Assembly (NCBI RefSeq): GCF_022049065.2
Contig: NZ_CP095743.1
Span: 1,131,001-1,195,000 of the forward strand
Source of the DNA: Niallia sp. Man26
GTDB taxonomy: Bacteria; Bacillota; Bacilli; Bacillales; Cytobacillaceae
Direction: 5' to 3'
Length of the DNA stretch: 64,000 bases
The first letter of the stretch is position 1. Each line of letters begins with the position of its first letter. This document shows positions 7,064-51,449 of this stretch, in pieces. The position numbers and the translations under genes are program-made. The notes under the pieces were generated by a model. The model was not told the DNA's origin and searched no databases. It saw only the letters and a program-made list of their open reading frames with translations.

Positions 7064-7171
7064 AAAAGTATTCGACTTAGGCTTGGAACAAAGTTGCGTA
7101 AAGGAAATTGATGCAAATTCGTAGCAAGCATTCGGGAGAATGAGATTTCCTGATAAAGATTATTCCCAATT

Positions 7172-7216
7172 ATCATAATAACGTCTGTGCACACAGGAGA
7201 CGGGTGTTACTATGAT
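7172..7216. repeat. imperfect inverted repeat in the aguA-xylR gap
   Basis: The arms ATCATAATAAC (7172-7182) and GTTACTATGAT (7206-7216) pair over 11 positions with one wobble or mismatch. The interior (GTCTGTG, then CACAGGAGAC) can extend the stem imperfectly. The 240-base gap between aguA and xylR otherwise holds only the terminator near 7265-7296. No T-run follows, so this is not a simple terminator; it could be a degraded mobile repeat or an RNA structure. Confidence 0.35.
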
Positions 7217-7264
7217 ATGTTTTGAAATGGAATATGGATGTTTTGCCGCAAATAAGCTGTAAAA

Positions 7265-7296
7265 AAAAGCGTGAACCGTTTTTGGTTTACGCTTTT
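7265..7296. terminator. rho-independent terminator between convergent aguA and xylR
   Basis: The stem is AAAAGCGTGAACC (7265-7277) with GGTTTACGCTTTT (7284-7296), including one G-T pair. On the minus strand it is followed by eight T residues, so it clearly serves xylR, and it may also stop transcripts from aguA. Confidence 0.8.
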
Positions 7297-7303
7297 ATCG
7301 TGT

Positions 7304-8485
7304 TTAGCTTTGAAGCTGTGCCTTCAGAAATGCTTCTGCTGAAAAAGCAGACGCTCCTAATGCAGACACTGGCAGAGACAAATCGGAGAAATCAATTCTG
7401 ATATCTGTCTGGTTAAACGGGGAAGTATATGCTTTGATAACTTCCTTTACCTTTGGTTCAAGCCACTGTTTACAGGAAGCAAGCCGATTTCCGATAATGA
7501 TTTGTTCAGGATTGAAGGCATGGATGATATTAATGATGCCGACAGCCAAGTTCTCACCAATTTCTTCTAATATATTTATTACTTGTTCGTCCTCTTTTTT
7601 TGCGAGCAGTAAAATATCATCTAAACAAATGTCACTTTCCTTTTTAAGATTCTTGCTGTTTGCTTTTGATAGTAAAGCCTGTTCTGAAGCGTAAAGCTCC
7701 CAGCAGCCTTTGTTGCCGCATGTACATTTGGCTCCGTTTCGATCAATCGTCATATGCCCGACTTCACCAGAATAGCCGTTAAATCCGCTGTAAAGCTCAC
7801 CGTTAATGATAACTCCTGCACCAATACCAATGCCGGCGCTGATATAAATCAAGTTATCAGCATGCTGACCCGCACCAAACCGCTTTTCTCCGTAGGCACC
7901 AGTGTTCGCTTCGTTTTCAACAATTACAGGTACTTGAAAGATTTTCTCCAGTTCTGATTGAAAATGAATATCGTGCCAGCCTAAGTTTGGGGCAAGCAAA
8001 AGTGTTCCTTTCTTATCGACGATACCGGGTGCGCCTACTCCAATCCCAACAATACCATAAGGAGAGGCTGGGGCAGAGCTTATTAAGGCGGTGATAATTT
8101 CCACTAGTCGGCTCATTGTATCTTCATAGGAAATATTTTTGTATGCTACATTCTTTTGTACAATAATATTGCCGCTGAGATCTGTCAGGACGCCAAGTAT
8201 ATAATTGACACCGAAATCTAGACCAATTGTGTATCCTGCCCCGTGGTTGAAGTGGAGCATTACTGGTCTCCGGCCACCGCTTGATTCGCCTGGACCTGAT
8301 TCATTAATAAATTTTTCCTCTAACAGCTCCGCTACAAGCGAGGAAACGGTTCCTTTATTAAGGCCAGAACGCTGTGCGATATCTGCACGAGACAGTGGAG
8401 TATGATTGATAATTTGTGAAAGTACGAGTGACTTATTTTCCTTTTTTACAAGCTGTTGGTTCCAAGTGATTGGCATAAACGTCAT
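7304..8485 (-). CDS. xylR: xylose operon repressor, ROK family
   Basis: A 393-residue repressor. The N-terminal winged helix (about residues 15-75) contains SRADIAQRSGLNKGTVSSLV. A ROK sugar-kinase-like domain follows, with the zinc motif CTCGNKGCWE near residues 255-264. The segment SSGGRRPVML is characteristic of XylR. It lies divergently from xylA, and a perfect palindrome of xylO type lies between them, so binding in the absence of xylose is the expected mode. The start shown is ATG 8485, behind AAGGGGGC with short spacing. An ATG three codons later (8476) is also possible. Confidence 0.93.
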   Translation of the reverse strand: MTFMPITWNQQLVKKENKSLVLSQIINHTPLSRADIAQRSGLNKGTVSSLVAELLEEKFINESGPGESSGGRRPVMLHFNHGAGYTIGLDFGVNYILGVLTDLSGNIIVQKNVAYKNISYEDTMSRLVEIITALISSAPASPYGIVGIGVGAPGIVDKKGTLLLAPNLGWHDIHFQSELEKIFQVPVIVENEANTGAYGEKRFGAGQHADNLIYISAGIGIGAGVIINGELYSGFNGYSGEVGHMTIDRNGAKCTCGNKGCWELYASEQALLSKANSKNLKKESDICLDDILLLAKKEDEQVINILEEIGENLAVGIINIIHAFNPEQIIIGNRLASCKQWLEPKVKEVIKAYTSPFNQTDIRIDFSDLSLPVSALGASAFSAEAFLKAQLQS

Positions 8486-8589
8486 TTAGCCCCCTTTTTG
8501 TCAAAAATAATATTCCCATTTTATCATTAATAACGGAAAACATTAATAATATTGAATTAAGTTTATCTAATAAACAAACAAAGTGCAAC

Positions 8590-8622
8590 AAACTTAGTTT
8601 ATTCAATAGACAAACTAAGTTT
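8590..8622. promoter_or_regulatory. xylO operator (XylR binding palindrome)
   Basis: Perfect 11-bp arms, AAACTTAGTTT (8590-8600) and AAACTAAGTTT (8612-8622), are separated by 11 bases. The half-site resembles the TTAGTTTGTT/AACAAACTAA operator of Bacillus xyl operons. It overlaps the -35 element of the xylA promoter. A weaker second palindrome, GTTTAT-CTA-ATAAAC, lies about 30 bases upstream. Confidence 0.85.
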
Positions 8623-8635
8623 GTGCTGATATAAT
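8607..8635 (+). promoter_or_regulatory. xylA promoter (sigma-A type)
   Basis: TAGACA (8607-8612) and TATAAT (8630-8635) are separated by 17 bases. The -35 element lies inside the operator palindrome, so XylR would block polymerase directly. Confidence 0.75.
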
Positions 8636-8699
8636 AGCTTCATAGCTAACAAGAAGATAGAGAGAGAAATGAATATAGGACTTTCTTTTTCTTTTATTT

Positions 8700-8713
8700 T
8701 GTAAGCGATATCA
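8700..8713 (+). promoter_or_regulatory. cre site in the xylA leader
   Basis: TGTAAGCGATATCA matches the CcpA-binding consensus TGWAARCGYTWNCW at all but one position. It lies between the xylA promoter and start codon, where CcpA would act as a roadblock, giving carbon catabolite repression as in B. subtilis xyl genes. Confidence 0.75.
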
Positions 8714-8746
8714 AAATCGATAATTTTAATGAGGAGGCAGTTAACA

Positions 8747-10078
8747 ATGGCGTATTTTGAAAACATCAATCAAATCAGGTATGAAGGTCCAGCATCGAAA
8801 AATCCCTTTTCCTTTAAGTACTATAATCCAGAAGAGATAGTAAATGGCGTTTCCATGGAAGAGCAGCTCCGTTTTTCGGTAGCTTATTGGCATACATTCA
8901 CAGCAGATGGAACGGACCCGTTTGGAAGCGGTACAGCCATCCGCCCTTGGAATCACTTAAAAGGTTTAGATTTGGCAAAAGCCCGTGTGGAAGCAGCTTT
9001 TGAATTATTTGAGAAACTGAACGCTCCGTTTTTCTGCTTTCATGATTCTGATATTGCACCAGAGGGAAATACATTAAAAGAAACATATGATAATCTTGAC
9101 CCGATTGTAGCGATGATCAAGGAATATATGAAAACAAGCAAAACGAAATTACTTTGGAATACAGCTAATATGTTTACACATCCAAGATATGTGCACGGTG
9201 CAGCAACTTCCAATAATGCCGATGTGTTTGCGTATGCTGCAGCAAAGGTGAAAAAAGGCCTTGAAATTGGCAAGGAGCTTGGTGCAGAGAACTATGTGTT
9301 CTGGGGCGGCCGCGAAGGTTATGATACATTGCTGAACACTGATATGAAACTGGAGCAGGATAACTTAGCCCGTTTCTTCCATATGGCGATTGACTATGCA
9401 CAGGAAATCGGTTTTGATGCTCCATTCTTAATCGAACCAAAACCAAAAGAACCGACAAAGCATCAGTATGATTTTGATGTGGCGACAGGATTGGCATTCC
9501 TGCAGAAATATGATCTTCAGGATCACTTTAAGTTTAATATTGAAGCAAACCATGCGACGCTTGCCGGTCACACTTTTGAGCATGAATTGAGAGTAGCGAG
9601 AATTAACGGCATGCTTGGATCTGTTGATGCTAACCAAGGTGATACATTGATTGGCTGGGATACAGACGAGTTCCCGACAGATTTATACAGCACCACTTTA
9701 GCCATGTATGAAATCTTGCTGAATGGCGGACTTGGCAAAGGCGGTTTAAACTTTGATGCGAAGGTGCGCAGAGGCTCTTTTGATGCGGAAGATCTTTTCC
9801 ATGCACATATTGCAGGGATGGATTCCTTTGCAATCGGCCTTAAGGTTGCCAATAAGCTAATTGAGGATAGAGTTCTAGAAGACTTTATTTCTGACCGCTA
9901 TGCAAGCTTTAAGGAAGGAATTGGCCTTGATATCGTCGAAGGAAGAACTAACCTCCATAAACTGGAGCAACATGCTCTTGCAATTGGTGAAGTGACAAAT
10001 AAGTCTGGCCGCCAAGAACGCTTGAAGGCGATTGTGAATCAATATTTGTTGGAAACATTAGCGCAAGTACGCGTATAA
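8747..10078 (+). CDS. xylA: xylose isomerase
   Basis: Interconverts D-xylose and D-xylulose. ATG 8747 is chosen because GAGGAGG at 8731-8737 is correctly spaced; the ATG at 8729 would place the ribosome site inside the gene. The 443-residue protein has all expected active-site residues of a class II enzyme: His99 and Asp102 (CFHDSD), and metal ligands Glu230 (LIEPKPKEP), Glu266 and His269 (NIEANHA), Asp294, Asp305 and Asp307 ([16 protein letters not shown]). It is the first gene after the XylR/CcpA control region. A hairpin terminator between xylA and xylB probably lowers expression of the downstream kinase. Confidence 0.98.
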
Positions 10079-10085
10079 AAGAGAG

Positions 10086-10117
10086 AATGTGCTGGGGATC
10101 ATACCAGCACATTTTTT
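10086..10117 (+). terminator. intergenic terminator/attenuator between xylA and xylB
   Basis: The stem is AATGTGCTGG (10086-10095) with CCAGCACATT (10104-10113), followed by TTTT. It lies within the xyl transcription unit, so partial read-through is the likely design. Confidence 0.8.
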
Positions 10118-10154
10118 AACAGGTAAGGTAAATGACTAAATGAGGTGATCTGAC

Positions 10155-11651
10155 ATGAAGTATTGCTTTGGAGTAGATTTAGGTACAAGTGCTGTAAAGA
10201 TTTTACTTGTTGATAAAAACGGAAATGTCGCTCATGAGGTATCAAAGTCGTATCCTTTGATCCATGAAAAATCAGGCTACAGTGAACAAGACCCTGAGGA
10301 GTGGGTGAACAAAACACTTGAGGGCTTCACTGAAATCATAGAAGTGTTCGAAGGGGAGAAAGAGGATATTGACGGGATAAGTTTCTCAGGTCAAATGCAT
10401 GGCCTTGTCCTGCTCAATAAGGAAAATCAAGTATTGCGAAACGCGATACTTTGGAATGATACGAGAACAACAGAGCAGTGCCGGTTAATTGAGGAAAAGG
10501 CTGGTGAAAAATTGCTTTCTATCACAAAAAATCCGGCATTAGAAGGCTTTACTTTGCCGAAACTGTTATGGGTTAAGCAATATGAAGAAGATCTTTTCAA
10601 ACAAGCCGCTGTTTTCATGCTGCCAAAGGATTATCTCAGGTACAGGCTCACTGGCAGCATACATACAGAATACTCCGATGCTGCAGGCACTCTTTTGTTA
10701 GATATAAGTAAAAAAGAATGGAGTGCAGAGCTTTGTGAATTGTTCGGCATTGATGCTAGTCTTTGTCCGCAGCTTGTTGAATCACATGCACTTGTTGGAA
10801 CTGTCACAGCAGAAGTTGCGGAGAAAACAGGGCTGTCTCCTGAATGCAAAGTGTTCGCCGGCGGTGCGGATAATGCTTGTGGAGCAATCGGCGCAGGTAT
10901 TCTGGCGAGTGGGAAAACACTTTGCAGCATCGGCACATCTGGTGTTGTGCTTTCCTATGAAGAAAAAGCAGAGAAGGATTTTCAAGGAAAGGTACATTAC
11001 TTCAATCATGGAGAGGAAAATGCCTATTATACGATGGGAGTGACATTAGCAGCAGGTCACAGCTTGAGCTGGTTTAAAGATACTTTTGCCGAGCATGATG
11101 GTTTTGAGGAAATGCTGGCAGAAATAAATCTTGTTCCAATTGGGTCAAACGGACTGTTATTTACCCCATATTTAGCAGGTGAGAGAACACCATATGCAGA
11201 TGCATTGATTCGGGGCAGTTTCATAGGAATAGATGCAACACATAAACGCCGAGATTTTGTTCGTGCTGTACTGGAGGGTATTACCTTTTCCTTAAATGAA
11301 TCAATTGAGATTTTTCGAGAGCACGGTAAGACAATCGACACAATTATCTCAATTGGCGGCGGAGCCAAAAATGAAGCGTGGCTGCAGATGCAGGCAGATA
11401 TCTTTAATGCAAAAGTCCTGAAGCTATCAAGTGAACAAGGGCCAGGGATGGGAGCGGCCATGCTTGCAGCAGTTGGAGCAGGGTGGTTTTCGTCATTAGA
11501 GGAGTGTGCGAACACGATGTTGCAGACTGTGAAGGAATATGAGCCTATTCAAGAGAATGTAAAAAGGTATGAAGAATTATACCGAATCTACAAGAAGGTC
11601 TATGGTCAAACCAAAATGCTGTCTGAAGAGTTAACACAGTTTCGAAAATAA
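10155..11651 (+). CDS. xylB: xylulokinase
   Basis: Phosphorylates D-xylulose to D-xylulose 5-phosphate, which enters the pentose phosphate pathway. The 498-residue FGGY-family kinase has the N-terminal phosphate loop GVDLGTSAVK, the substrate segment SFSGQMHGLVLL, and the catalytic aspartate in FAGGADNACGAIG near residue 238. The C-terminal ATP-binding region includes SIGGGAKNEAW. GAGGTGA lies upstream of the ATG. It follows xylA with a terminator-like hairpin in between and is followed 21 bases later by an aldo/keto reductase gene, which appears to share its transcript. Confidence 0.97.
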   Translation: MKYCFGVDLGTSAVKILLVDKNGNVAHEVSKSYPLIHEKSGYSEQDPEEWVNKTLEGFTEIIEVFEGEKEDIDGISFSGQMHGLVLLNKENQVLRNAILWNDTRTTEQCRLIEEKAGEKLLSITKNPALEGFTLPKLLWVKQYEEDLFKQAAVFMLPKDYLRYRLTGSIHTEYSDAAGTLLLDISKKEWSAELCELFGIDASLCPQLVESHALVGTVTAEVAEKTGLSPECKVFAGGADNACGAIGAGILASGKTLCSIGTSGVVLSYEEKAEKDFQGKVHYFNHGEENAYYTMGVTLAAGHSLSWFKDTFAEHDGFEEMLAEINLVPIGSNGLLFTPYLAGERTPYADALIRGSFIGIDATHKRRDFVRAVLEGITFSLNESIEIFREHGKTIDTIISIGGGAKNEAWLQMQADIFNAKVLKLSSEQGPGMGAAMLAAVGAGWFSSLEECANTMLQTVKEYEPIQENVKRYEELYRIYKKVYGQTKMLSEELTQFRK

Positions 11652-11672
11652 TGGAAACAAGGAGGCTCTAAT

Positions 11673-12656
11673 ATGAAGTATAGAGAGCTGGGGAAAACAG
11701 GTCTGAAGATAAGCGAGGTCAGTTTTGGAACATGGGCGATTGGCGGTTCATGGGGGAAAACGGATGATGAAGAGGCACTGAAATCGCTTGACAGGGCAAT
11801 AGGGGAAGGGGTGAATTTCTTTGATACGGCCGATGTCTATGGGAATGGACACAGTGAGGAATTGCTGGCTAAGGTGTCTAAGGGGAAGGAAGAGGATATT
11901 CACATTGCGACAAAATTTTGCCGAGGCGGAGATATTCATGCAGCCGACACCTACACTTATGAAAATGTTCGAACCTTCTGCGAAAACAGCTTGAAGCGCT
12001 TGAACAGAGAAGCAATTGACTTATATCAGATTCATTGTCCGCCCCTTGAAATCCTTCAGGACGGTAAAGTTTTTGCAGTGCTGGACCGTTTGAAGCAGGA
12101 AGGGAAAATAAAGCATTATGGTGTCAGTGTTGAAACAGTGGAAGAGGGATTGCTGTGTCTTGAGCATGAAGGGGTAGATTCACTGCAGGTTATCTTTAAT
12201 ATCTTCCGTCAAAAGCCTCTAGAGAAATTGCTGCCAGAAGCAAAGCAGAAGGGAACGGGTATCTTAGTTCGCCTGCCGCTGGCAAGCGGCCTGTTAACAG
12301 GCAAATTTACGCAGGGGCACCGCTTTGAAAAAGATGATCATCGCGCATTTAATGAAAATGGGGAGTCCTTTAATATCGGAGAGACTTTTAGCGGACTCGG
12401 TTTTTCAAAGGGTGTTGAGCTCACGGAGCAGATTGCGTGGATTGGTGATAGACGTCAATCGATGGCATCTGCTGCCTTAAGATGGATACTTGATCATGAG
12501 GAAGTGTCCTGCATTATCCCAGGCTTCAAAAATGAAAACCAAATTCTTGCAAACTTAGCAGCGCTGGATGAAGCACCTTTTACACAGGAGGAAAAAACGC
12601 GGCTTAACCATTTTTATCAACAGAACGTAAAAAACAGCATCAGAGGACCGTATTGA
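11673..12656 (+). CDS. aldo/keto reductase in the xylose operon
   Basis: A 327-residue NAD(P)H-dependent (beta/alpha)8 oxidoreductase. The catalytic tetrad Asp51, Tyr56, Lys81 and His121 is complete (FFDTADVYGNG, IATKF, YQIHCP). AAGGAGG stands before the ATG. The gene follows xylB by 21 bases with no terminator between, so it belongs to the xylose transcript. The family reduces aldehydes and ketoses, and some members oxidise sugars. A role in xylose or xylulose redox metabolism is possible, but the substrate cannot be read from sequence. It resembles general sugar/aldehyde AKRs (YajO/YhdN type) more than dedicated xylose reductases. Confidence 0.9.
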   Translation: MKYRELGKTGLKISEVSFGTWAIGGSWGKTDDEEALKSLDRAIGEGVNFFDTADVYGNGHSEELLAKVSKGKEEDIHIATKFCRGGDIHAADTYTYENVRTFCENSLKRLNREAIDLYQIHCPPLEILQDGKVFAVLDRLKQEGKIKHYGVSVETVEEGLLCLEHEGVDSLQVIFNIFRQKPLEKLLPEAKQKGTGILVRLPLASGLLTGKFTQGHRFEKDDHRAFNENGESFNIGETFSGLGFSKGVELTEQIAWIGDRRQSMASAALRWILDHEEVSCIIPGFKNENQILANLAALDEAPFTQEEKTRLNHFYQQNVKNSIRGPY

Positions 12657-23482: not shown

Positions 23483-24298
23483 TTAATAGAAAGAAGTGCT
23501 AATAGAAGCACTGCTCGTTGCTGCAGTATTCGTGCTTGAACCTGGCTTCCAGTTAAAGGGAGGCAGTGAGCTTCCAGACAGCTGTATACTGTTTGGGAAG
23601 GCTTCAGAGATAGTTTCACTAGTAACACTTGATGAACTGTCAGCATTGCTCTGCTCTTCATTTAGTTCTTGCAGTATGCTCTCGAAAATGTTAGCAATCT
23701 GTTCATCCGAGGCCGATTCTAAATCGAAGCCTGCAAGCTGGCCAGACAGATCACTAGATAATGAATCTGTAATAATGGAAGCTTCCGCAGTATCCTCCGT
23801 GTTTAAGCTGCTGATTATATTGGAAAGGAATTGACTCATCTGGGCAACAGTGTATTCCTCGCTCATTTGTGAAATCACTGGTGGAGGCATTGTTCCTATA
23901 GACATCACCCTTTGAGGCTTAGCACTTTCCAAAGTGTCTGATACTTGTTCAAAAAGGGAGGAGATTTCGTCTTCTGTACTTTCTTCTGTGTCAAATTCTG
24001 ATAAGAGACTGCTGATGGTTGTATATGCTGTTTGCAAGCTGTCTTGCAGGGGAGTATCTGTCAAGCTGCCGCTCTCTTCTGCCTTCGGTTGCATATTTTT
24101 TAGAAATGCTGTTTTTTGTTCAATTGTTAATGCTGGTAAGTCCTTTGTGCTTGTGACGGGCACCTCGCTTCCTTGGCTGCTTGCTGTGAGCATATCTTGG
24201 AATGAAGCGATAGAGTCATCTTGAGCAGTGACTGTTTGCACTGCTGATTTTTGCAGCATTTGCAAATAAGCAGAAGCATTACTTACTGATATGGACAT
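23483..24298 (-). CDS. unrecognised Ser/Thr-rich acidic protein
   Basis: I do not recognise this 271-residue protein. The composition is dominated by Ser, Thr, Glu, Gln and Ala, with no cysteine, no signal peptide and no membrane segment. A helical N-terminus (SNASAYLQMLQKSAVQ) is followed by acidic helices such as LLSEFDTEESTEDEISSLF and a low-complexity C-terminus rich in Ser and Thr ending STSFY. The ATG is behind AGAAGGGAAG. A weak hairpin after the stop may be its terminator. It could be a secreted or surface-associated structural protein, or a substrate of a specialised secretion route, but nothing in the sequence shows this. Confidence 0.7.
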   Translation of the reverse strand: MSISVSNASAYLQMLQKSAVQTVTAQDDSIASFQDMLTASSQGSEVPVTSTKDLPALTIEQKTAFLKNMQPKAEESGSLTDTPLQDSLQTAYTTISSLLSEFDTEESTEDEISSLFEQVSDTLESAKPQRVMSIGTMPPPVISQMSEEYTVAQMSQFLSNIISSLNTEDTAEASIITDSLSSDLSGQLAGFDLESASDEQIANIFESILQELNEEQSNADSSSSVTSETISEAFPNSIQLSGSSLPPFNWKPGSSTNTAATSSASISTSFY

Positions 24299-24401: not shown

Positions 24402-25307
24402 TTAAACTGCAGCATTTTGCTGCATGCGAAGACGATATTCCTTTGGAGAGCAGAGATTATGACGTTTGAACAGCTTATAAAACTGGGCAATATTGCTTAT
24501 GCCAACATCAAAACTGATTTCCATAATGCTTTTTTCACTTGTTAACAGCAGCAGCTCTGCTCTTTTAATTCGTTTAAGATTCACATAGTCTATAAAGGAA
24601 ATTCCCATGCTTTTTTTGAAATACTTAATGAAATAGTGATAGCTTAAGTTTAAGATAGAGCAGGCTTCCTCGACAAAAAGCTTATCTTTTAGATGATCTT
24701 CAATATAATCTAGCACTGGCTTTAACCGGGTGAAGCTTTCCGCATCGGCAAATTTCAGCAAATTTTGCTCGTCGTTTCTAATGAGCAGCAGCAAAAGCTT
24801 TTTTATGGCCGAATTGATGGCAATCTCATATCCCTTTTCCTTTTGCTGTGCCTCCATATAAATCTCCATAATCAGGCTGTATACCTGTTTTTTTACTTGT
24901 TCATTTTTTTCAAAAATATAATTTAAATGCTGCAGCGGTGTTGTGACCTCAGAAAAGCAATGCAAATAGGGCAGGATGCTCTGGTCAAAATGCTTCACTA
25001 AGTCTACTTGAAACACAATATAGCGCAGATTTCCTTTAGAAGGTTTACATGTCCGGTGGGGCTGGGATGCACCCATAATATAAGTGTCCCCACTTCCAAT
25101 CACAGTGGATTGATATTGGTGCTGAATCGCTAAATTGCCCTCCATGATTGCGAGAAATTCGACTTCCTTATGAAAATGCCATGTCTCCTGCTCGATAAGC
25201 GCAGTATAATCCGGCTCATCATTAATTTCCCAAACCTTTAAAGATAATAACGGATTTTCATAATGAACCACTTCATTAACAGGTTCTTCATATGTATTTT
25301 TAACCAT
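24402..25307 (-). CDS. AraC family transcriptional regulator with cupin sensor domain
   Basis: A 301-residue regulator. The N-terminal cupin domain (about residues 30-120; HFHKEVEFLAIMEG, MGASQPHR) is of the kind that binds sugars or other small ligands. The C-terminal double helix-turn-helix (about 200-295) includes LFVEEACSILNLSYHYFIKY and ISFDVGISNIAQFYKLFKRH. It is divergent from thuA, with 160 bases between, and is the likely regulator of the sugar cluster at 25.4-29.3 kb and perhaps 29.6-32.6 kb. AraC members of this type usually activate. The ribosome site is GGGGGTC before ATG 25307. Confidence 0.9.
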   Translation of the reverse strand: MVKNTYEEPVNEVVHYENPLLSLKVWEINDEPDYTALIEQETWHFHKEVEFLAIMEGNLAIQHQYQSTVIGSGDTYIMGASQPHRTCKPSKGNLRYIVFQVDLVKHFDQSILPYLHCFSEVTTPLQHLNYIFEKNEQVKKQVYSLIMEIYMEAQQKEKGYEIAINSAIKKLLLLLIRNDEQNLLKFADAESFTRLKPVLDYIEDHLKDKLFVEEACSILNLSYHYFIKYFKKSMGISFIDYVNLKRIKRAELLLLTSEKSIMEISFDVGISNIAQFYKLFKRHNLCSPKEYRLRMQQNAAV

Positions 25308-25419
25308 TCTCTAAGACCCCCGACAAAAGATATAAATGCATCATCCATTATGGAAGTGTATTTTTTTATTTTCGATAAATGACACAATTGAATAAAAAGA
25401 AGCCAATTTTGAGCATTTA

Positions 25420-25433
25420 TTAAATCGCTTTCA
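25420..25433. promoter_or_regulatory. candidate cre site in the thuA promoter
   Basis: Read on the minus strand this is TGAAAGCGATTTAA, which matches the cre consensus TGWAARCGYTWNCW except at two positions. It falls between the -35 and -10 elements of the thuA promoter. Confidence 0.45.
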
Positions 25434-25438
25434 TTTTT

Positions 25439-25462
25439 TATAATGATACCATAAATCGGTAT
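25439..25462 (+). promoter_or_regulatory. thuA -10 element and adjacent palindrome
   Basis: TATAAT (25439-25444) is 17 bases after a weak TTTATT. Immediately downstream ATACC (25446-25450) and GGTAT (25458-25462) form an inverted repeat around the expected transcription start, a possible operator for the divergent AraC protein or another repressor. Confidence 0.5.
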
Positions 25463-25468
25463 TGGAGT

Positions 25469-26185
25469 GTGGCTAACTTGATAACTATATGGAACGAAAA
25501 TCGCCATGAAAAAATAAATCCTGTTGTAGCGGAAATTTACCCTGATGGTATACACGGCTGTATTGACAGCGTTCTAAAAAATGCAGGCTTTGATACAAAA
25601 ACGGCAACCTTGGATGATCCGGAGCACGGCCTGACAGATGAGGTGCTGGAAAACACAGATGTTCTTGTCTGGTGGGGGCATATTGCGCATGGAGAAGTAA
25701 AGGACGAAATTGTAGAAAAAGTGCATAAGCGTGTTCTAGATGGAATGGGACTTATCGTCTTGCACTCCGGCCATTTTTCGAAAATATTCAAAAAGCTAAT
25801 GGGAACAAGCTGTGATTTGAAGTGGAGAGAAGCGGCTGATAAGGAAAGGCTGTGGGTAGTTGCTCCAAGTCATCCGATTGCTGAAGGAATCGGTGAATAT
25901 ATCGAGCTAGAAAAAGAGGAGATGTATGGCGAGCATTTTGATATCCCAGCACCAGATGAGCTGATTTTTACAAGCTGGTTTACAGGCGGAGAAGTGTTCA
26001 GAAGCGGCTGTACATACCAAAGAGGGAACGGAAAAATATTTTATTTCAGACCGGGACATGAAACGTATCCTACATATCATCAGAAAGACATTCAACAAGT
26101 CATCATTAATGCAGTGAACTGGGCGAAGCCGGTTGCCAGAACACGTCCTGTATACGGGAACAGTCAGCCTTTAGAAAAGTTATAG
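25469..26185 (+). CDS. thuA: ThuA-like protein (trehalose utilisation family)
   Basis: A 238-residue protein of the ThuA family, which has a glutamine-amidotransferase-like fold. Conserved features include [11 protein letters not shown] near the N-terminus, [23 protein letters not shown] and the C-terminal FRPGHETYP. ThuA proteins work with Gfo/Idh/MocA dehydrogenases in disaccharide catabolism through 3-keto sugars, and such a dehydrogenase is encoded next. The GTG at 25469 is very close to the possible ribosome site TTGGAG (25462-25467); a TTG at 25478 ([11 protein letters not shown]) has better spacing and may be the real start. First gene of a four-gene unit. Confidence 0.88.
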
Positions 26186-26210
26186 AAAAAAATCATAGGG
26201 GGAAAAAAAC

Positions 26211-27242
26211 ATGAGTACATTAAAAATTGGTGTAATTGGCTGCGGGAGCATCGCTCAGCACAGGCATCTGCCTGAATACAGCTGGAATAAGAATGTGGAG
26301 ATAGTCGCTGTTTGTGATATTAATGAGGAGCGCGCTCTTGAGATTGGCAAAAAATATGGTGCAAAAGCATATACAGATTATACAGAGCTTCTTGCTGTTG
26401 CAGAAATCGATGCGGTAAGTGTATGTACACCAAACTATCTGCATGCACCAATTTCTGTTGCTGCATTGAATGCAGGCAAACATGTGCTGTGCGAAAAGCC
26501 GATGGCAACCTCATCTGAAGAAGCAGCCCAAATGATAGAAGCAGCCAAAAAGAGCGGAAAAAAATTAATGATCGGGCATAATCAGCGTTTTGTAAAATCA
26601 CATCAAAAAGCTCGTGAACTAATTAAATCAGGTGAAATTGGCAAATTATACAGTTTCCGCACAGCATTCGGCCATGGTGGTCCGGAGCAATGGAGCGTGG
26701 ACGGCAAGGGAAGCTGGTTCTTCCAGAAAGAAAAAGCATTCATTGGCGCAATGGGAGACTTAGGTGTTCATAAAACAGACCTTCTCCGCTATATTCTAGG
26801 GGAGGAATTCGTTGAGGTTGGAGCCTTTGTGGAAACAAATGCGAAGGATTTTGCCGATGTGGATGATAATGCTGTGTGCGTATTGAAGACAGAAAGCGGA
26901 GTAATCGGAACATTGGCGGCAAGCTGGGCTTACACGAGCAAAGAAGATAATTCGACGGTGATTTACGGTGAGAAGGCAATCTTAAGATTGGAAGATCATC
27001 CTCAATACTCTTTAATCGTGCAGTATGCTAATGGGGAAACAGTAAACTATGAGCTTGGTAAAATCCAATCAAATGATGAAGGCGGCCAAAATGCAACAGG
27101 TGTGATTGATCATTTTGTCGCTTCCATTCTAACGGACAGTGAACCTTTGATTACAGGAGAAGAAGGCAAAAAATCTCTGGAAGTTATATTAGGTGCGATT
27201 AAATCAAAAGAGACAAAGCAAATCGCAACAATAAATCAATAA
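26211..27242 (+). CDS. Gfo/Idh/MocA family oxidoreductase 1
   Basis: A 343-residue NAD(P)-dependent sugar dehydrogenase. The N-terminal Rossmann fold carries GVIGCGSIAQHRHLPEY, and the consensus CEKPMA includes the lysine used in hydride transfer (near residue 96). The C-terminal alpha/beta domain has the conserved region MGDLGVHKTDLLRYI with a histidine near residue 187. Family members oxidise myo-inositol, glucose derivatives or 3-hydroxy positions of glycosides. AGGGGG precedes the ATG. It lies 25 bases after thuA and 29 bases before a TIM-barrel isomerase, in the same operon. Exact substrate unknown. Confidence 0.92.
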   Translation: MSTLKIGVIGCGSIAQHRHLPEYSWNKNVEIVAVCDINEERALEIGKKYGAKAYTDYTELLAVAEIDAVSVCTPNYLHAPISVAALNAGKHVLCEKPMATSSEEAAQMIEAAKKSGKKLMIGHNQRFVKSHQKARELIKSGEIGKLYSFRTAFGHGGPEQWSVDGKGSWFFQKEKAFIGAMGDLGVHKTDLLRYILGEEFVEVGAFVETNAKDFADVDDNAVCVLKTESGVIGTLAASWAYTSKEDNSTVIYGEKAILRLEDHPQYSLIVQYANGETVNYELGKIQSNDEGGQNATGVIDHFVASILTDSEPLITGEEGKKSLEVILGAIKSKETKQIATINQ

Positions 27243-27271
27243 AATATATAGATTAGAAGGAGAGAATGGCA

Positions 27272-28240
27272 ATGAAACTAGGAGTCTTTACAGTCCTGTT
27301 TGCGGATAAATCGTTTGAAGAAATGCTTGATGCAGTAAAGGAAGCCGGCCTGCAGGCTGTTGAAATCGGCACAGGAGGCTATCCGGGCAATGCACACTGT
27401 GATTTGGACACATTGCTGGAGGATGAAACAAAGAGGCAGGAATATATAAAGAAAGTCGAAGACAGAGGATTAATGATAAGTGCGTTCAGTTGTCACGGCA
27501 ACCCAATTTCTCCTGAGAAGGAGTTCGCGTTGAAATCTCATGAAACTTTGATGAAAACAATCAAGCTTGCCTCCCTTCTAAATGTGCCTGTTGTTAATTG
27601 CTTCTCTGGAACAGCTGGTGATCATGAAGGAGCGAAGTTTCCGAATTGGCCAGTCACTCCATGGCCAACTGAATACAGTGATGTGAAAACATGGCAATGG
27701 GAGGAAAAGCTGATTCCTTACTGGAAGGAAGTAGGACAGTACGCAAGTGATCACAATGTGAAAATTGGTCTTGAACTGCATGGCGGATTCTTAGTTCATA
27801 CTCCATACACACTTTTGAAGCTGCGCGAAGAAACATGTGATGCAATCGGCGCCAACCTTGATCCAAGCCACTTATGGTGGCAGGGCATTGATCCTGTGGG
27901 AGCCATTAAAATATTGGCAAAAGCAAATGCAATCCATCATTTCCATGCTAAAGATACGTATATCGACCAGGATAATGCGAATATGTATGGATTGACAGAT
28001 ATGCAGCCATACGGAAATGTACAGTCAAGGGCGTGGACTTTCCGGTCTGTCGGCTGCGGCCATAGTGCTGCAGAATGGTCTGATATGATGAGTGCATTGC
28101 GCACATACGGCTATGACTATGTTGTCAGTATCGAGCATGAGGATCCACTTATGTCTATCCGTGAAGGACTGGCAAGAGCTGTATCAACACTTAAGTCAGT
28201 TGTTATCGAAGAAGCACCATCTCAAATGTGGTGGGCATAA
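27272..28240 (+). CDS. sugar phosphate isomerase/epimerase family TIM-barrel protein
   Basis: ATG 27272 is preferred because AAGGAG at 27257-27262 is correctly spaced; the ATG at 27266 is too close. The 322-residue AP-endonuclease-2-type TIM barrel has the expected divalent metal ligands Glu168 (GLELHGG), Asp197 and His200 (NLDPSHLWW), His225 (HFHAKD) and Glu288 or Glu290 (SIEHEDP). Relatives include IolE/IolI, hydroxypyruvate isomerase and 3-keto-glycoside-processing proteins. Placed between two Gfo/Idh/MocA dehydrogenases, it probably isomerises, dehydrates or cleaves a keto-sugar produced by one of them. Confidence 0.9.
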   Translation: MKLGVFTVLFADKSFEEMLDAVKEAGLQAVEIGTGGYPGNAHCDLDTLLEDETKRQEYIKKVEDRGLMISAFSCHGNPISPEKEFALKSHETLMKTIKLASLLNVPVVNCFSGTAGDHEGAKFPNWPVTPWPTEYSDVKTWQWEEKLIPYWKEVGQYASDHNVKIGLELHGGFLVHTPYTLLKLREETCDAIGANLDPSHLWWQGIDPVGAIKILAKANAIHHFHAKDTYIDQDNANMYGLTDMQPYGNVQSRAWTFRSVGCGHSAAEWSDMMSALRTYGYDYVVSIEHEDPLMSIREGLARAVSTLKSVVIEEAPSQMWWA

Positions 28241-28264
28241 ATACCAATTTAGGAGGATTTAAGC

Positions 28265-29323
28265 ATGACTTCATATAAAGTAGGGATCGTAGGGTGTGGC
28301 AATATTTTTCCGATGCATGCACAATCAATCGTAACAAGAGAAGATGCTGAGCTTGTTGCAGTTTGTGATGTAAAAAAAGACCGGGCAGATTCAAAAGCGG
28401 CCATTTATAATTGTGCCAGCTACACAGACTATGAAAAGATGTTTGAGCAAGAGTCTCTCGATGTTATCCATATTTGTCTGCCCCATCATTTGCATGCGCC
28501 TGTTGCCATTGCTGCAGCAAAAAGAAAGATTCATGTGCTGACAGAAAAGCCGATGTCTATCAGCTTAGAAGATGCAGAAGAGATGGTAGCAGCACATCAG
28601 GAAAATGGCACAACATTAGGCGTTATTTTCCAGAATCGTTATAATCCAGGCTCTCAGCTTATTAAGAGGATGCTTGTAAACGGTGAATTGGGTGCGATTA
28701 AATCAGGAAAATTATCAGTAACATGGGATCGCTCTGATGAATATTATCAAAAAAGTGATTGGAAAGGTACGTGGGAGAAAGAAGGCGGCGGCGTTATTAT
28801 CGACCAGGCGATTCACACATTAGATTTGATGAGATGGTTCATTGACAGTGATATTAAATATGTCGATGCAACCATCAGCAACAGAGCTCATGAAATAATT
28901 GAAGTAGAGGATTCTGCTGAAGGAGTAATTTCCTTTCAAAACAATGTTGTAGCAGCTTTTCATGCCATCAATTACTACACATATGATGCACCTGTGGAAA
29001 TAGAGCTGCATTGTGAACAAGGAATTGCTAAAATGGTTGCAGACCGTGCAACTGTTCGTTTGATGGATGGCAGAGAGTTTATCGCTGACAATAATCCGCA
29101 AGAAACATTCCATTATGATAATGGTGCAAAGGGCTATTGGGGTGTAAGTCATGTCAAGCAAATCAACAATTTCTATGAGTCTCTAAAATCAGGAGCAGCC
29201 CCTGATATTACGGGAACAGATGCATTAAAAACACAAAAAATGATTTGTGCTATCTATGAATCTGGCAAGAAAAGAGAAAGAGTTGTATTCCAACAAAATA
29301 CATCGCAAAAAGAATTGGCTTAA
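28265..29323 (+). CDS. Gfo/Idh/MocA family oxidoreductase 2
   Basis: A 352-residue member of the same dehydrogenase family as the gene at 26211 but clearly diverged. The Rossmann motif is GIVGCGNIFPMHAQ, the catalytic lysine lies in TEKPMSIS, and the second domain has GGGVIIDQAIHTLDLMRWF with the active-site histidine. AGGAGG stands before ATG 28265, 24 bases after the TIM-barrel gene. It ends the thuA operon. Two different dehydrogenases in one operon could act in opposite directions, oxidising one sugar and reducing the product, a redox-neutral epimerisation or keto-glycoside scheme. This role is inferred from context only. Confidence 0.92.
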   Translation: MTSYKVGIVGCGNIFPMHAQSIVTREDAELVAVCDVKKDRADSKAAIYNCASYTDYEKMFEQESLDVIHICLPHHLHAPVAIAAAKRKIHVLTEKPMSISLEDAEEMVAAHQENGTTLGVIFQNRYNPGSQLIKRMLVNGELGAIKSGKLSVTWDRSDEYYQKSDWKGTWEKEGGGVIIDQAIHTLDLMRWFIDSDIKYVDATISNRAHEIIEVEDSAEGVISFQNNVVAAFHAINYYTYDAPVEIELHCEQGIAKMVADRATVRLMDGREFIADNNPQETFHYDNGAKGYWGVSHVKQINNFYESLKSGAAPDITGTDALKTQKMICAIYESGKKRERVVFQQNTSQKELA

Positions 29324-29330
29324 TAGACGA

Positions 29331-29352
29331 ACCTTTGTGAAGACTCAAAGGT
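29331..29352. other. hairpin without T-run after the thuA operon
   Basis: ACCTTTG (29331-29337) and CAAAGGT (29346-29352) form perfect 7-bp arms around 8 bases just after the last stop. No T tract follows, so it may stabilise the mRNA end rather than terminate. Confidence 0.4.
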
Positions 29353-29470
29353 AGCTGAAACACTCTGCAATGACATTTGCCAATAGCTATACTAAATTAA
29401 TTGACTTGATTAAATGAAAGTCAAAAAACAAATTTAGCAGCCATTGTCCAAGCAGAACGTGAATAAATAT

Positions 29471-29503
29471 GAAGAGGATTCCTGATTGGGGGTCCTCTTT
29501 CTT
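29471..29503 (+). terminator. terminator of the thuA operon
   Basis: GAAGAGGAT pairs with GTCCTCTTT across a loop of about ten bases and is followed by TTTCTT. It separates the thuA unit from the SGNH-AKR-transporter unit. Confidence 0.7.
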
Positions 29504-29557
29504 AGCTGTCAACAAAAAAAACATGTTTTTCAATTTTTGTAAATAGAAAAAAAGGGT

Positions 29558-29586
29558 TTGCAAATAGAATAAGAGAATGCTAGTAT
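29558..29586 (+). promoter_or_regulatory. promoter of the SGNH-AKR-SET unit
   Basis: TTGCAA (29558-29563) and TAGTAT (29581-29586) are separated by 17 bases, in the 352-base gap after the thuA operon. Confidence 0.7.
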
Positions 29587-29603
29587 TGGTGCGAACAATG
29601 TGA

Positions 29604-29617
29604 TGAAAGCGTTTGAA
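29604..29617 (+). promoter_or_regulatory. cre site
   Basis: TGAAAGCGTTTGAA matches the CcpA consensus TGWAARCGYTWNCW at 13 of 14 positions. It lies just downstream of the promoter, where CcpA binding blocks elongation, so this unit is probably subject to catabolite repression. Confidence 0.75.
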
Positions 29618-29675
29618 CTATTAATATATACATGTAGAACACTTAAACTTTTGTGAGGGAAAGAGGTTGGTCAGC

Positions 29676-30293
29676 TTGAACAAAAAGGATCTATTGCTGT
29701 TCATTGGTGACAGCATTACAGAAGCAGGCAGATATGAAGATCCGGAACAGATTGGTTTCAGCTATGTCCGTTATATTAGAGATTATATGGCGATTAATCG
29801 GCCAGAGTCTCTCCCAACAATCATCAATAAAGGGATTGGCGGCAATAGAGTCCCTGATTTGGCGGAGCGCTGGGAAGCAGATGTACTGAATCTAAAGCCA
29901 GATTATGTATCGATATCAATTGGCATCAATGATGTATGGCGACAGCTGGATTCCCCGCATCAAGAGTCATTGTCGCCAGAACAATTTAAAGAAGTTTATG
30001 CTAATTTGATTGAGCAAGTTCGCGCCCGCACAAATGCCAAAGTCATTTTAATGGAGCCGACTGTAATCGAAGAGAATGTAGATGCCCAAGGAAACAGGCT
30101 GCTCATACCATATGTAAAAGCAGTACAGGAACTGGCTGAAAGCTATAATGCCGTGCTTGTGCCAACACATACAGCATTTATTGCATATCTTCAAAAAGAG
30201 AATCACCAAGTGCTGACAACAGACGGTGTTCATATGAATACAGCTGGAAATATGCTGATGGCACAAACATGGCTTCAAGCCGTCTTAAACTAA
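29676..30293 (+). CDS. SGNH/GDSL-family hydrolase (carbohydrate esterase-like)
   Basis: A 205-residue esterase. TTG 29676 is chosen because AGAGG at 29662-29666 is well spaced; an in-frame TTG at 29667 abuts that site. The catalytic elements are complete: Ser13 in FIGDSITEAG, Gly55 in GIGGN, Asn85 in GIND, and Asp183/His186 in DGVHM. There is no signal peptide, so it acts in the cytoplasm. Cytoplasmic SGNH esterases next to sugar genes often remove acetyl groups from imported oligosaccharides. The cre-controlled promoter and the sugar genes around it support that, but the substrate is not established. Confidence 0.9.
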   Translation: MNKKDLLLFIGDSITEAGRYEDPEQIGFSYVRYIRDYMAINRPESLPTIINKGIGGNRVPDLAERWEADVLNLKPDYVSISIGINDVWRQLDSPHQESLSPEQFKEVYANLIEQVRARTNAKVILMEPTVIEENVDAQGNRLLIPYVKAVQELAESYNAVLVPTHTAFIAYLQKENHQVLTTDGVHMNTAGNMLMAQTWLQAVLN

Positions 30294-30313
30294 ATCGAAA
30301 AGGAGATAACGAA

Positions 30314-31312
30314 ATGGTGTATACAGCGAATGAAAACCGTTATGAATCGATGAAATATAATCGAGCTGGAAACTCAGGTCTTTTGCTCCCAGCCATCTCT
30401 TTAGGGCTTTGGCATAATTTTGGCGGTGTGGATACATATGAAAATGGCCGGGCTATTTTAAGGAAAGCATTTGATTTGGGCATCACCCATTTCGACCTGG
30501 CAAATAATTACGGGCCGCCGCCTGGAACAGCGGAAGAGATGTTCGGAAAAATGTTAAAGGATGATTTTGCGCCATATCGGGATGAAATGGTTATTTCCAC
30601 TAAGGCAGGCTATCATATGTGGCCAGGTCCATATGGTGACTGGGGCTCAAAAAAATATCTTGTTTCCAGTCTTGATCAAAGCTTGAAAAGAATGGGACTT
30701 GAGTATGTGGATATCTTTTACTCGCATCGTCCAGATCCAAATACGCCTTTAGAGGAGACGATGTCGGCTCTTGACCTCGTTGTTCGGCAAGGGAAAGCTA
30801 TGTATGTTGGAATCTCTAACTATAGTGCAGAACAGACTGCAGAAGCAGTCAAAATTCTCAATCGCCTTGGCACTCCGCTGCTTATTCATCAGCCGAAATA
30901 TTCTCTTTTGGACCGCTGGATAGAAACAGGGCTTCAAGACGTATTAGCAGAAAACGGTGTTGGTTCGATTGCCTTTTGTCCGCTGGCACAAGGTTTGCTG
31001 ACAAGCAAATACGCAAACGGCATTCCGGAAAATTCAAGGGCTGCAAAACCACAAAGCTTCCTGAAGAAAGACCAGGTTACCGAGGAGTTGGTAGATCGCG
31101 TGATGAAATTGAATCAAATTGCATCAAACCGCGGTCAAAGCCTTGCTCAAATGTCTTTAGCATGGGTTCTTCGCCATGGGAAAGTTACTTCTGCTCTCAT
31201 CGGTGCAAGCCGAGTTAGCCAAGTTGAAGAAAATGTCGCAGCACTGAACAACTTAGATTTTTCGGAGAAAGAGCTTGCAGATATTGATTATATTTTAACT
31301 GCTTCCTTCTAG
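30314..31312 (+). CDS. aldo/keto reductase, YghZ (L-glyceraldehyde 3-phosphate reductase) type
   Basis: ATG 30314 lies behind AAAGGAGATAA; a longer frame from 30269 overlaps the esterase gene and is unlikely. The 332-residue protein has the AKR catalytic tetrad Asp61, Tyr66, Lys97 and His138 (FDLANNYGPPPG, ISTKAGY, FYSHRPDP). The motifs HMWPGPYGDWGSKK and LLIHQPKYSLLDRW are typical of the AKR14/YghZ subgroup. These enzymes reduce small aldehydes, including L-glyceraldehyde 3-phosphate. Within this unit it may reduce an aldehyde intermediate of an unusual sugar. Confidence 0.92.
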   Translation: MVYTANENRYESMKYNRAGNSGLLLPAISLGLWHNFGGVDTYENGRAILRKAFDLGITHFDLANNYGPPPGTAEEMFGKMLKDDFAPYRDEMVISTKAGYHMWPGPYGDWGSKKYLVSSLDQSLKRMGLEYVDIFYSHRPDPNTPLEETMSALDLVVRQGKAMYVGISNYSAEQTAEAVKILNRLGTPLLIHQPKYSLLDRWIETGLQDVLAENGVGSIAFCPLAQGLLTSKYANGIPENSRAAKPQSFLKKDQVTEELVDRVMKLNQIASNRGQSLAQMSLAWVLRHGKVTSALIGASRVSQVEENVAALNNLDFSEKELADIDYILTASF

Positions 31313-31409
31313 CAGTTACAAAATAACATTGCTGTCTAAATGGCAGCAATGTTTGTTTGCTAAAGACAGAATACAACTGTATTGATAGAAAAAAGGAGAG
31401 GAAATCATC

Positions 31410-32633
31410 ATGATAAAAAAACTGTTGTTTGTGTGGAGAATCCCATCATTTCCAATTCTTTTTTTAGCGAATTTCATATTTGGCTTGTCTATGTCATTTT
31501 TTGCCCCATTCTCTTCCCTTTTTGGAATTGATGAGGTTGGAATGAGCAATATCGGATTTGGGGTATTTATGACAATTATGGCAATTGGCGGTGTCGTAAT
31601 CAGCACCATCATTGCCAAAAAATCAGATGCACAATTAAGCAGAAAGAAAATTTTATTATTTACAAGCTTTACAGGCATGCTCGGCTATATAGGCTTTGCC
31701 TTTGTCCGGGATTATCTCTTTTTGGCAGTGATAGCCTTTGTTCTGCTTGGTTCGGCAGCTGCCTCTGTGCCGCAGCTGTGGGCCTATGCGCGGGAGGCGC
31801 TGTATCATTCTGATGTTCCGAAAGAACAGGTGCCGTTTGTAATGAATGTTTTCAGGATGTTCTTTGCTCTTTCCTGGACAGTAGGACCTGCAGCAGCAGC
31901 ATGGCTGCTGGCAATAATAGACTTCAAAGGATTGTTTCTGTTAGTTGCAGCAAGCTATGGAATAGGAATGATTGTAATACTGCTTTTCTTGAAGGATATT
32001 CCGAAAATTGTTGGTGAAAAGAAGGCTGCCCCTACCGGGGTGAGCTCTTATGTCCGGAAGCCTCATATATTCGGAAACTTGGCTGCTGCTTTGCTTTTAG
32101 CAGCTGCAACATCAATTCATATGTTGAATGCTCCGCAATTTGTTACTAAAGTGCTTGGTGGCAGCGAGTTTGATGTTGGGTTAATATTCAGTGTGCCGCC
32201 GATTTTTGAAGTACCAATGATGATTGCTGTCGGAATCTTGGCTACAAAGCTTGATAACAGTCTGCTCATAAGGATAGGCTTTGGCATTGCTGCCATTTAT
32301 TTTACTCTATTCTTTTTTGTTGGCGAACCTTGGCAGATCTATCCACTGCAAATATTAAGTGCTGCACAAGTTTCCATTACTTCAGGAATTGCCATTTCTT
32401 ATTTTCAGGATTTTATTCCTCAAGCACAAGGAACGGCAACAACACTGTATATGAATTCTACCCAAATCGGCAACACGGTTGGTTATTTGCTGTTTGGCGT
32501 TTTAGCAGAAGCGATGAGCTATGGCAATGTCATTATTATTTATGCGATTTTCGCCATTGTTGCCTTACTATGTCTAATCCTTTTCGGAAAGGAAAAGCAA
32601 AAAGCACAAACAGCATCGTTTCGGATGGAATAA
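31410..32633 (+). CDS. MFS sugar efflux transporter, SET family
   Basis: A 407-residue integral membrane protein with about twelve hydrophobic segments. The pattern resembles SetA/SetB sugar efflux pumps: a first-half segment VPQLWAYAREALYHSD and the following RMFFALSWTVGPAAAA parallel conserved SET regions. Such transporters export glucosides, lactose or sugar analogues and relieve sugar-phosphate stress. AAGGAGAGG precedes ATG 31410. It is the last gene of the cre-controlled unit and is followed by a strong terminator. Export of a toxic or non-metabolised sugar from the pathway encoded upstream is a plausible role. Confidence 0.85.
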   Translation: MIKKLLFVWRIPSFPILFLANFIFGLSMSFFAPFSSLFGIDEVGMSNIGFGVFMTIMAIGGVVISTIIAKKSDAQLSRKKILLFTSFTGMLGYIGFAFVRDYLFLAVIAFVLLGSAAASVPQLWAYAREALYHSDVPKEQVPFVMNVFRMFFALSWTVGPAAAAWLLAIIDFKGLFLLVAASYGIGMIVILLFLKDIPKIVGEKKAAPTGVSSYVRKPHIFGNLAAALLLAAATSIHMLNAPQFVTKVLGGSEFDVGLIFSVPPIFEVPMMIAVGILATKLDNSLLIRIGFGIAAIYFTLFFFVGEPWQIYPLQILSAAQVSITSGIAISYFQDFIPQAQGTATTLYMNSTQIGNTVGYLLFGVLAEAMSYGNVIIIYAIFAIVALLCLILFGKEKQKAQTASFRME

Positions 32634-51093: not shown

Positions 51094-51276
51094 ATTTTTT
51101 ATTTTATAAAACGATGAATTAACGAGAAAAACAGCAAAAAACAGAGAATTGGTTAGATGAGGACGAGTAATTTGCATTGCCTGCGTCTTTTAGCGTTTTT
51201 TTGTTCTTTTTTGCTCTTTTTCCTTCATTTACTTTTTATCTTTTTGGGAGTAATATCTTCAAGTAAATAATATTTC

Positions 51277-51420
51277 GTAAATCGCTTAATCCATTTTTGG
51301 AGCGGGGGACCCAATTTTTATGTGCCGTGATAATGGCGCTTGGGGTGAATCCTATTGCAGGAGGGGCAACTCTCAGATGTCCCAACCCGACAGCTAACTC
51401 CGCAAGCGTTTAGAGAGAGG
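51277..51420 (+). ncRNA. c-di-AMP riboswitch (ydaO-yuaA class)
   Basis: The conserved elements of the ydaO class occur in order: ATCGCTTAATCC (51281-51292), GGAGCGGGGGACCCA (about 51299-51313), TTGGGGTGAATCC, GAGGGGCAACTCTC, then CCGACAGCTAACTCCGCAAG and CGTTTAGAGAGAGG. The ends pair as P1 (AAATCGCTT with AAGCGTTT). It lies just upstream of kimA, the usual place in Bacillus. Ligand binding favours the downstream terminator, switching the potassium importer off. Confidence 0.92.
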
Positions 51421-51449
51421 AATAATCTGATGTTCGATTTGACACGATC

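Follow-up and report, generated by a model that had tools for sequence, protein, structure and literature searches.

What does a cluster of eight genes at 24402..32633 of a stretch of the Niallia sp. Man26 genome do, and do all eight take part in it? The stretch analysed, here called the window, is 64,000 nt long (assembly GCF_022049065.2, contig NZ_CP095743.1, 1,131,001-1,195,000), and all coordinates below are window positions. A sequence-only reading had assigned the eight genes to a single sugar pathway. We find a real, conserved catabolic operon of four of them, ThuA, a first Gfo/Idh/MocA dehydrogenase (GFO1), a TIM barrel protein and a second Gfo/Idh/MocA dehydrogenase (GFO2), under an AraC-family regulator; its chemistry is of a known kind, the combination is new. 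The net effect of the four proteins is probably to hydrolyse a glycoside with no glycosidase involved. From homology, conservation, linkage, co-occurrence and predicted fold we infer every catalytic step, as well as the control.

The eight open reading frames (ORFs) lie where they had been placed and, apart from two corrected starts, are as first described. Profile searches returned the families that had been named: AraC/HTH_18, ThuA (PF06283), two Gfo/Idh/MocA proteins, AP_endonuc_2, GDSL/SGNH, Aldo_ket_red and a major facilitator superfamily (MFS) protein. The regulator and the operon are:

24402..25307, minus strand: AraC-family regulator (HTH_18/AraC matches), divergent from the operon, in the same place in 13/13 genus genomes.
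25478..26185, plus strand: ThuA (PF06283, 137.6 bits), TTG start corrected, proposed for the 3-keto-glycoside cleavage step.
26211..27242, plus strand: GFO1, a Gfo/Idh/MocA dehydrogenase belonging to the conserved core (profile match; nearest solved protein DgpA, 7xr9, E 2.2e-45).
27266..28240, plus strand: TIM barrel, proposed 2-hydroxy-3-keto-glucal hydratase of the LgdB2 type (homology, fold match 8ro4, motifs).
28265..29323, plus strand: GFO2, second Gfo/Idh/MocA dehydrogenase, found at 78-100% identity in 13/13 genus genomes.

For ThuA, the TTG at 25478 is a more likely start than the GTG at 25469; in 8/13 genus genomes an ATG occupies the site of the TTG, and GGAG lies upstream. The genus sample consists of the Man26 genome and 12 others, with the neighbourhood read in each. 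The order AraC-ThuA-GFO1-TIM-GFO2 is present in all 13, a conservation of gene order beyond chance; in one genome (G009) GFO2 is divided between two contigs, and in another (G007) the aligned GFO2 stretch contains one stop.

In the proposed mechanism, one Gfo enzyme would oxidise the C3 hydroxyl of a glucosyl unit with NAD+. With loss of the acidified C2 proton, elimination would then release the aglycone or the second sugar, leaving 2-hydroxy-3-keto-glucal; ThuA is the best candidate for this step, with the TIM protein as the alternative. The TIM protein, acting as a metal-dependent enzyme, would add water to give 3-keto-glucose, and the other Gfo enzyme would reduce this to glucose, regenerating NAD+. 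The oxidising and reducing roles may be assigned to GFO1 and GFO2 either way. Because the sum would be a hydrolysis without net redox change, neither a kinase nor a glycosidase would be needed in the operon. Homology supports the earlier idea of a 3-keto-glycoside pathway with two dehydrogenases.

The middle of that pathway had been pictured as a rearrangement, with the TIM protein as isomerase, and here our reading departs from the first. The TIM protein shares 53-56% identity with the candidate LgdB2 proteins of four levoglucosan dehydrogenase loci (54% over the full length), which were assigned by position and size in LgdA loci; eight LgdA genes scored over the cut-off, and the loci of four were read. 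LgdB2 of B. smithii itself was absent from the 120 of 7995 entries listed in a protein search by name. The window TIM and candidate LgdB2 form separate clades. Among characterised structures, AtHYD (8ro4), a 2-hydroxy-3-keto-glucal hydratase, matches the window TIM best, at 17% identity in the structural alignment, and both the AtHYD fold and its sequence motifs are present. Many epimerases and xylose isomerases follow close behind AtHYD in the fold-search lists, and fold alone is insufficient to pick out a hydratase; the choice is made on sequence, motifs and synteny. The protein is most likely a hydratase of 2-hydroxy-3-keto-glucal, and its resemblance to LgdB2 and AtHYD makes elimination and hydration the more likely middle part of the pathway. 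A wider sample was obtained with the TIM protein as query, by reading the neighbourhoods of the best 80 of at least 568 loci in named genomes. These loci are close relatives and do not count as independent cases in the figures out of 80. The highest matches among them are a Bacillus metagenome-assembled genome (98%), followed by four genomes at 86%, of which three carry the name Niallia.

Pathways of this kind had been said to be described in other phyla. Of the described systems that we found, the nearest with a homologous TIM protein is in fact from a bacillus: the available passages of one report (PMC7676230) give levoglucosan use by Bacillus smithii S-2701M as oxidation, elimination, hydration and reduction by LgdA-LgdB1-LgdB2-LgdC. 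ThuA-GFO1-TIM is itself common in Bacillaceae. The Niallia operon shares with the Lgd system the logic of the steps, the Gfo enzymes and a TIM protein of about 325 residues, of the LgdB2 type. It differs in having no LgdA: against the levoglucosan dehydrogenase model NF052479 (cut-off 650 bits) GFO1 scores 154.3 and GFO2 94.7 bits, and both were rejected as levoglucosan dehydrogenases. Nor is either Gfo protein of the LgdC type; to candidate LgdC, GFO1 is 33% identical over 61% and GFO2 33% over 41% of the length. The locus also lacks a second, LgdB1-type TIM protein (there is one AP_endonuc_2 among the eight proteins), and has ThuA instead. The four-step logic recurs in the GlycDH-OGE-HYD-Gfo operon of Agrobacterium tumefaciens, in which, in the passages available (PMC10628242), cleavage is by OGE, annotated as a putative sugar phosphate isomerase. 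The window TIM shares the fold and motifs of AtHYD, but the operon encodes no OGE-like second protein; ThuA is the candidate for cleavage.

Does ThuA depend on the TIM protein? In a class sample of 250 Bacilli genomes, with thresholds of at least 62% (ThuA) and 47% (TIM) identity to the window proteins, ThuA is found in 70 and TIM in 109, and all 70 ThuA genomes also carry TIM, while 39/109 TIM genomes are without ThuA. Left out of these counts were 4/76 ThuA matches at 24-26% identity and 4/133 TIM matches, which were either at 32-39% identity or, at 47%, a mere fragment of 148 residues. Of the ThuA genes, 46/72 lie within 10 kb of TIM. The genome-level p value of 4e-34 is inflated by kinship; counted by genus the association is 31/31 versus 54/106 (p 2e-12). 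As a control, IolE exceeds its cut-off in 32/70 ThuA genomes, and among the 56 IolE genomes 32 have ThuA with TIM and none ThuA alone. The company of the TIM protein changes with its similarity to the window TIM. At 60-100% identity, 36/82 are within 10 kb of ThuA and, among the matches listed, none is near LgdA; at 54-60%, two are near ThuA and 7/12 near LgdA among the matches listed; at 45-53%, eight are near ThuA and 21/35, again among the matches listed, near an LgdA-like Gfo gene. By these band counts and the co-occurrence, the TIM protein is common to LgdA-started and ThuA-containing routes, and ThuA was not found without it. The two kinds of locus are bridged in the middle band, where genome G119 (L187:7094-10153) has ThuA (72%), LgdC (54%) and LgdB2 (72%) in a row; neither LgdA nor LgdB1 occurs in the 16.6 kb that were read. 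A second genome of the same genus, G259, has the same ThuA-LgdC-LgdB2 order, as judged by match coordinates alone.

ThuA of the window is 63.6% identical over 214 residues to ThuA of Sinorhizobium meliloti, which sits in an importer-ThuA-Gfo operon, and 15 ThuA sequences from bacilli, alphaproteobacteria, an actinobacterium and a haloarchaeon have numerous His, Glu and Trp residues in common without exception, H68, H71, H96, H99, H132 and E148 among them. The fold resembles that of class 1 glutamine amidotransferases (GATase-1). The nearest solved proteins are uncharacterised (1t0b, 73%), and the structure search with ThuA placed no characterised enzyme near it. HSGH is found where the GATase cysteine elbow would presumably be, a position judged by the sequence motif of the family rather than by a spatial alignment. 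The B. subtilis control genome has no match to PF06283. According to the passages available, the thuAB products turn trehalose and maltitol into their 3-keto derivatives, while root colonisation is impaired when thuA or thuB is disrupted (PMC6515357), and thuB and thuA are called the degradation genes (PMC6683767); the open-licence passages assign no reaction to ThuA and make no link between ThuA and a hydratase. Beyond the shared ThuA, the Niallia operon resembles the thuEFGKAB operons of Sinorhizobium and Agrobacterium in that 5/80 related loci have ThuF/ThuG-like importers, whose permeases share 45% identity with ThuF and ThuG of S. meliloti. It differs in its dehydrogenases, S. meliloti ThuB being 28% and 26% identical to GFO1 and GFO2 and no closer to them than other Gfo proteins are; in having no ThuEFGK importer within 24402-32633, importers lying beside the core in some relatives; and in its TIM protein, as none is annotated in the rhizobial locus (L192).

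We suggest, tentatively and with less than even confidence, that ThuA may be a 3-keto-glycoside beta-eliminase, built on a GATase-like fold from which the cysteine elbow has apparently been lost, that passes 2-hydroxy-3-keto-glucal to a hydratase of the LgdB2/AtHYD type. It is unlikely, while deserving serious attention, that within the same pathway the TIM protein alone both eliminates and hydrates, leaving ThuA to isomerise, open or hydrolyse a 3-keto product, or something similar. LgdB2 has been reported to be bifunctional (available passages of PMC7676230), the GATase-1-like fold of ThuA would suit such a role and TIM occurs without ThuA in the 39 genomes mentioned; against this, ThuA is never without TIM in the 70 genomes that have it, and in the bridging locus it accompanies LgdC and LgdB2 just where LgdA and LgdB1 are missing. 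The Man26 genome also encodes another, divergent ThuA, flanked by a Gfo gene on either side (L113), and is rich in loci of this sort (L113-L120), with 23 AP_endonuc_2 and 27 GFO_IDH_MocA places.

Of the two dehydrogenases, GFO1 goes with the core. Among the 80 related loci, GFO1 is present in 79 and ThuA of the same cluster in 72, and of the GFO1 genes at least 60% identical, 15/17 are within 10 kb of TIM. The second dehydrogenase varies. In 60/80 loci a different Gfo gene, GFO3, stands directly before TIM; its product is 24-31% identical to GFO2 and 34-40% identical, over at least 94% of the length, to E. coli YcjS. Niallia has no GFO3 before TIM, and has GFO2 after it instead. Beyond the genus, GFO2 has matches at E<=1e-70 in 6/249 other genomes of the class, at 38-40% identity, and it appears to be specific to the genus.

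The YcjS-like GFO3 brings to mind the E. coli ycjQRS genes, which likewise comprise two dehydrogenases and a TIM protein and from which stereochemical editing would follow: oxidation at C3, epimerisation at C4 by the TIM protein and re-reduction to a guloside. We regard this as improbable for the Niallia operon. No gene matches YcjQ, GFO3 is absent from the window operon, and GFO2 is 31% identical to YcjS over 64% of the length; the TIM protein, 54% identical to candidate LgdB2, does not match YcjR in BLASTP at E 1e-3; a YcjR-type epimerase was rejected accordingly.

For the elimination and hydration pathway, the substrate class is likely an alpha-glucosidic disaccharide, to which only the neighbours of the core in relatives point. 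The remark that glycosidase and importer are lacking holds within 24402-32633 and fails beside the core in relatives, where a GH13 alpha-glucosidase gene is found in 29/80 loci and ATP-binding cassette (ABC) importer parts (clusters 7, 8 or 10) in 21/80, further importer clusters lying outside this count. In 21 loci the GH13 gene starts at most 202 bases behind TIM, some of the called ORFs overlapping TIM; its products are nearest to solved alpha-glucosidases and oligo-1,6-glucosidases. Two of the binding proteins are nearest to maltose and trehalose/maltose binders. In Paenibacillus JDR-2, thuAB-like genes upstream of an importer are about 10-fold up on maltose, according to the passages available (PMC4765114), and with the neighbours in relatives this response indicates alpha-glucosidic disaccharides. 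For Niallia itself, the inference is weaker, since GFO3 is there replaced by GFO2. An acidic glycoside is possible as substrate, because GFO2 has as its nearest relatives of solved structure 3q2k/3q2i (tabulated as oxidoreductase, dehydrogenase), which we take to be WlbA, and the glucuronide 3-dehydrogenase 8tdi. By sequence reading, LacI or AraC regulators and two-component systems are near the core in other Bacillaceae. An additional TIM protein of about 253 residues (cluster 9, with a weak IolE match) is near the core in 18/80 loci, including L041.

Do the three genes behind GFO2 belong to the pathway? The features of this part are:

29341..29466, plus strand: leftover 3' end of znuA, with an approximate start, recognised by aligning the znuA genes of G004, G011 and G012.
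29667..30293, plus strand: SGNH/GDSL hydrolase (profile match), separate unit, behind znuA in G001-G004 and G010-G012.
30314..31312, plus strand: aldo/keto reductase (AKR) of the L-glyceraldehyde 3-phosphate reductase subfamily (NF007388, 493.3 bits, cut-off 448), separate unit.
31325..31353, plus strand: terminator-like stem of 12 pairs between AKR and SET.
31410..32633, plus strand: MFS protein resembling sugar efflux transporters (SET; best model TIGR00899, 181 bits, below its cut-off of 522).

The ORF of AKR opens at 30269, and its start is probably at 30314. This second unit could be assessed in 11/13 genus genomes, as G005 and G009 stop at contig ends. The call for a conserved gene neighbourhood is borne out for the five-gene core and fails for the block of eight: SGNH-AKR-SET follows the operon in 5/11 genomes (Man26, G004, G006, G011 and G012), SET alone is found in G008 and none of the three in the G007 stretch, and in G001, G002, G003 and G010 SGNH stands behind a ZnuA-type gene without AKR or SET. 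Thus, znuA separates the operon from SGNH in seven relatives (G001-G004, G010-G012). In three of these (G004, G011, G012) both a ZigA-type GTPase and a ZnuA-type binding protein are encoded between GFO2 and SGNH; in L167, the locus scanned, the GTPase scores 507 bits (cut-off 600) and the ZnuA-type protein 289 bits with PF01297. Some 125 bases from the 3' end of znuA survive in the window, their frame broken, and are followed by a 72-73% match to the region upstream of SGNH. Compared with L167, L174 and L175, the GTPase gene and most of znuA are gone; other ZnuA-type matches lie elsewhere in the Man26 genome. The zinc genes were also weighed as a pointer to a zinc-dependent ThuA, and speak neither for nor against it. 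In G006, GFO2 adjoins SGNH too, and there is no znuA ORF. Since the window retains a scrap of the gene found between the units in relatives, the intervening znuA is, on this comparison, the older state, and the two units evidently met in the window by deletion. SET may be a third transcription unit, as the terminator-like stem precedes it; stems of this kind number four in the region against 7.0 expected in shuffles, which is weak as statistics.

A single pathway of all eight genes would have the esterase deacetylate the substrate, AKR reduce an aldehyde and SET export the product, and the eight do adjoin and run in the same direction in the window and in G006, the regulator gene apart. Given that znuA separates the two units in seven genus genomes, in three of them together with the GTPase gene, and given the remnant in the window, SGNH without AKR and SET in four genomes and the stem ahead of SET, this is very improbable. 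By the conserved order, the znuA remnant and the stem, SGNH, AKR and SET are left out of the pathway as separate units that came to adjoin the operon through loss of zinc genes. Inositol catabolism by IolG-like dehydrogenases and an IolE-like dehydratase, named beforehand as a refuting case, is scarcely conceivable and was set aside, as both Gfo proteins and the TIM protein match the iol models weakly, far below the cut-offs (iolG 176 and 156 bits versus 355, iolE 36 versus 290), and an IolE over the cut-off (388 bits) is encoded elsewhere in the Man26 genome.

With the ThuA-GFO1-TIM-GFO2 operon delimited in this way, the following sites may bear on its control:

25420..25433, minus strand: site resembling a catabolite-responsive element (cre) of unit 1, TGAAAGCGATTTAA on the minus strand, 1 mismatch to TGWAANCGNTNWCA, just upstream of the -10 box.
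25439..25444, plus strand: TATAAT, probable -10 box of the operon, present in 13/13 genus genomes.
29604..29617, plus strand: cre-like site of unit 2 upstream of SGNH, TGAAAGCGTTT, kept in 3/4 relatives aligned.

The cre consensus is TGWAANCGNTNWCA. Matches to it with at most 1 mismatch number five in the window against 4.68 expected, which by itself is not above chance. The core of the unit 1 site, TGWAANCG, stands beside TATAAT in 13/13 genus genomes, and this conservation is the sole support for the cre pattern. Of the cre-like sites that had been noted near both promoters, that of unit 2 is the weaker, being more than 1 mismatch from the pattern, and the fourth relative (L169) does not align there. 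Carbon catabolite repression of the operon is likely. A conserved block, AATGACAnnnTnGnATAA, in the gap between AraC and ThuA is perhaps the AraC site. Promoter and terminator scans gave about the shuffle level or fewer.

Near the AraC gene, 23483-24298 encodes a Ser-rich protein of 271 residues without a Pfam match, with relatives at 36-64% identity in some, not all, genus genomes. Further away, 3014-12656 is a probable glucuronoxylan/xylose cluster, with UxuA D-mannonate dehydratase, GH67 alpha-glucuronidase, a ROK regulator, a xylose-isomerase-like TIM protein, an FGGY kinase and an aldo/keto reductase. A c-di-AMP riboswitch (RF00379, 92.6 bits) lies at 51273-51424, at the 5' end of the ORF 51355-53367.

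A few systems are known to cleave glycosides through oxidation, elimination, hydration and reduction, and ThuA is a conserved protein, shared by organisms as far apart as bacilli, rhizobia and a haloarchaeon. The second dehydrogenase of the pathway seems exchangeable, the genus having a Gfo of its own where 60/80 related loci have a YcjS-like one. With a one-way dependence of ThuA on a hydratase-type TIM protein and a natural ThuA-LgdC-LgdB2 row, the gap that ThuA presents becomes testable with three or four proteins. If ThuA is indeed the eliminase, this would explain why it was never found without TIM in 250 Bacilli genomes, and would give rhizobial ThuA its missing activity.

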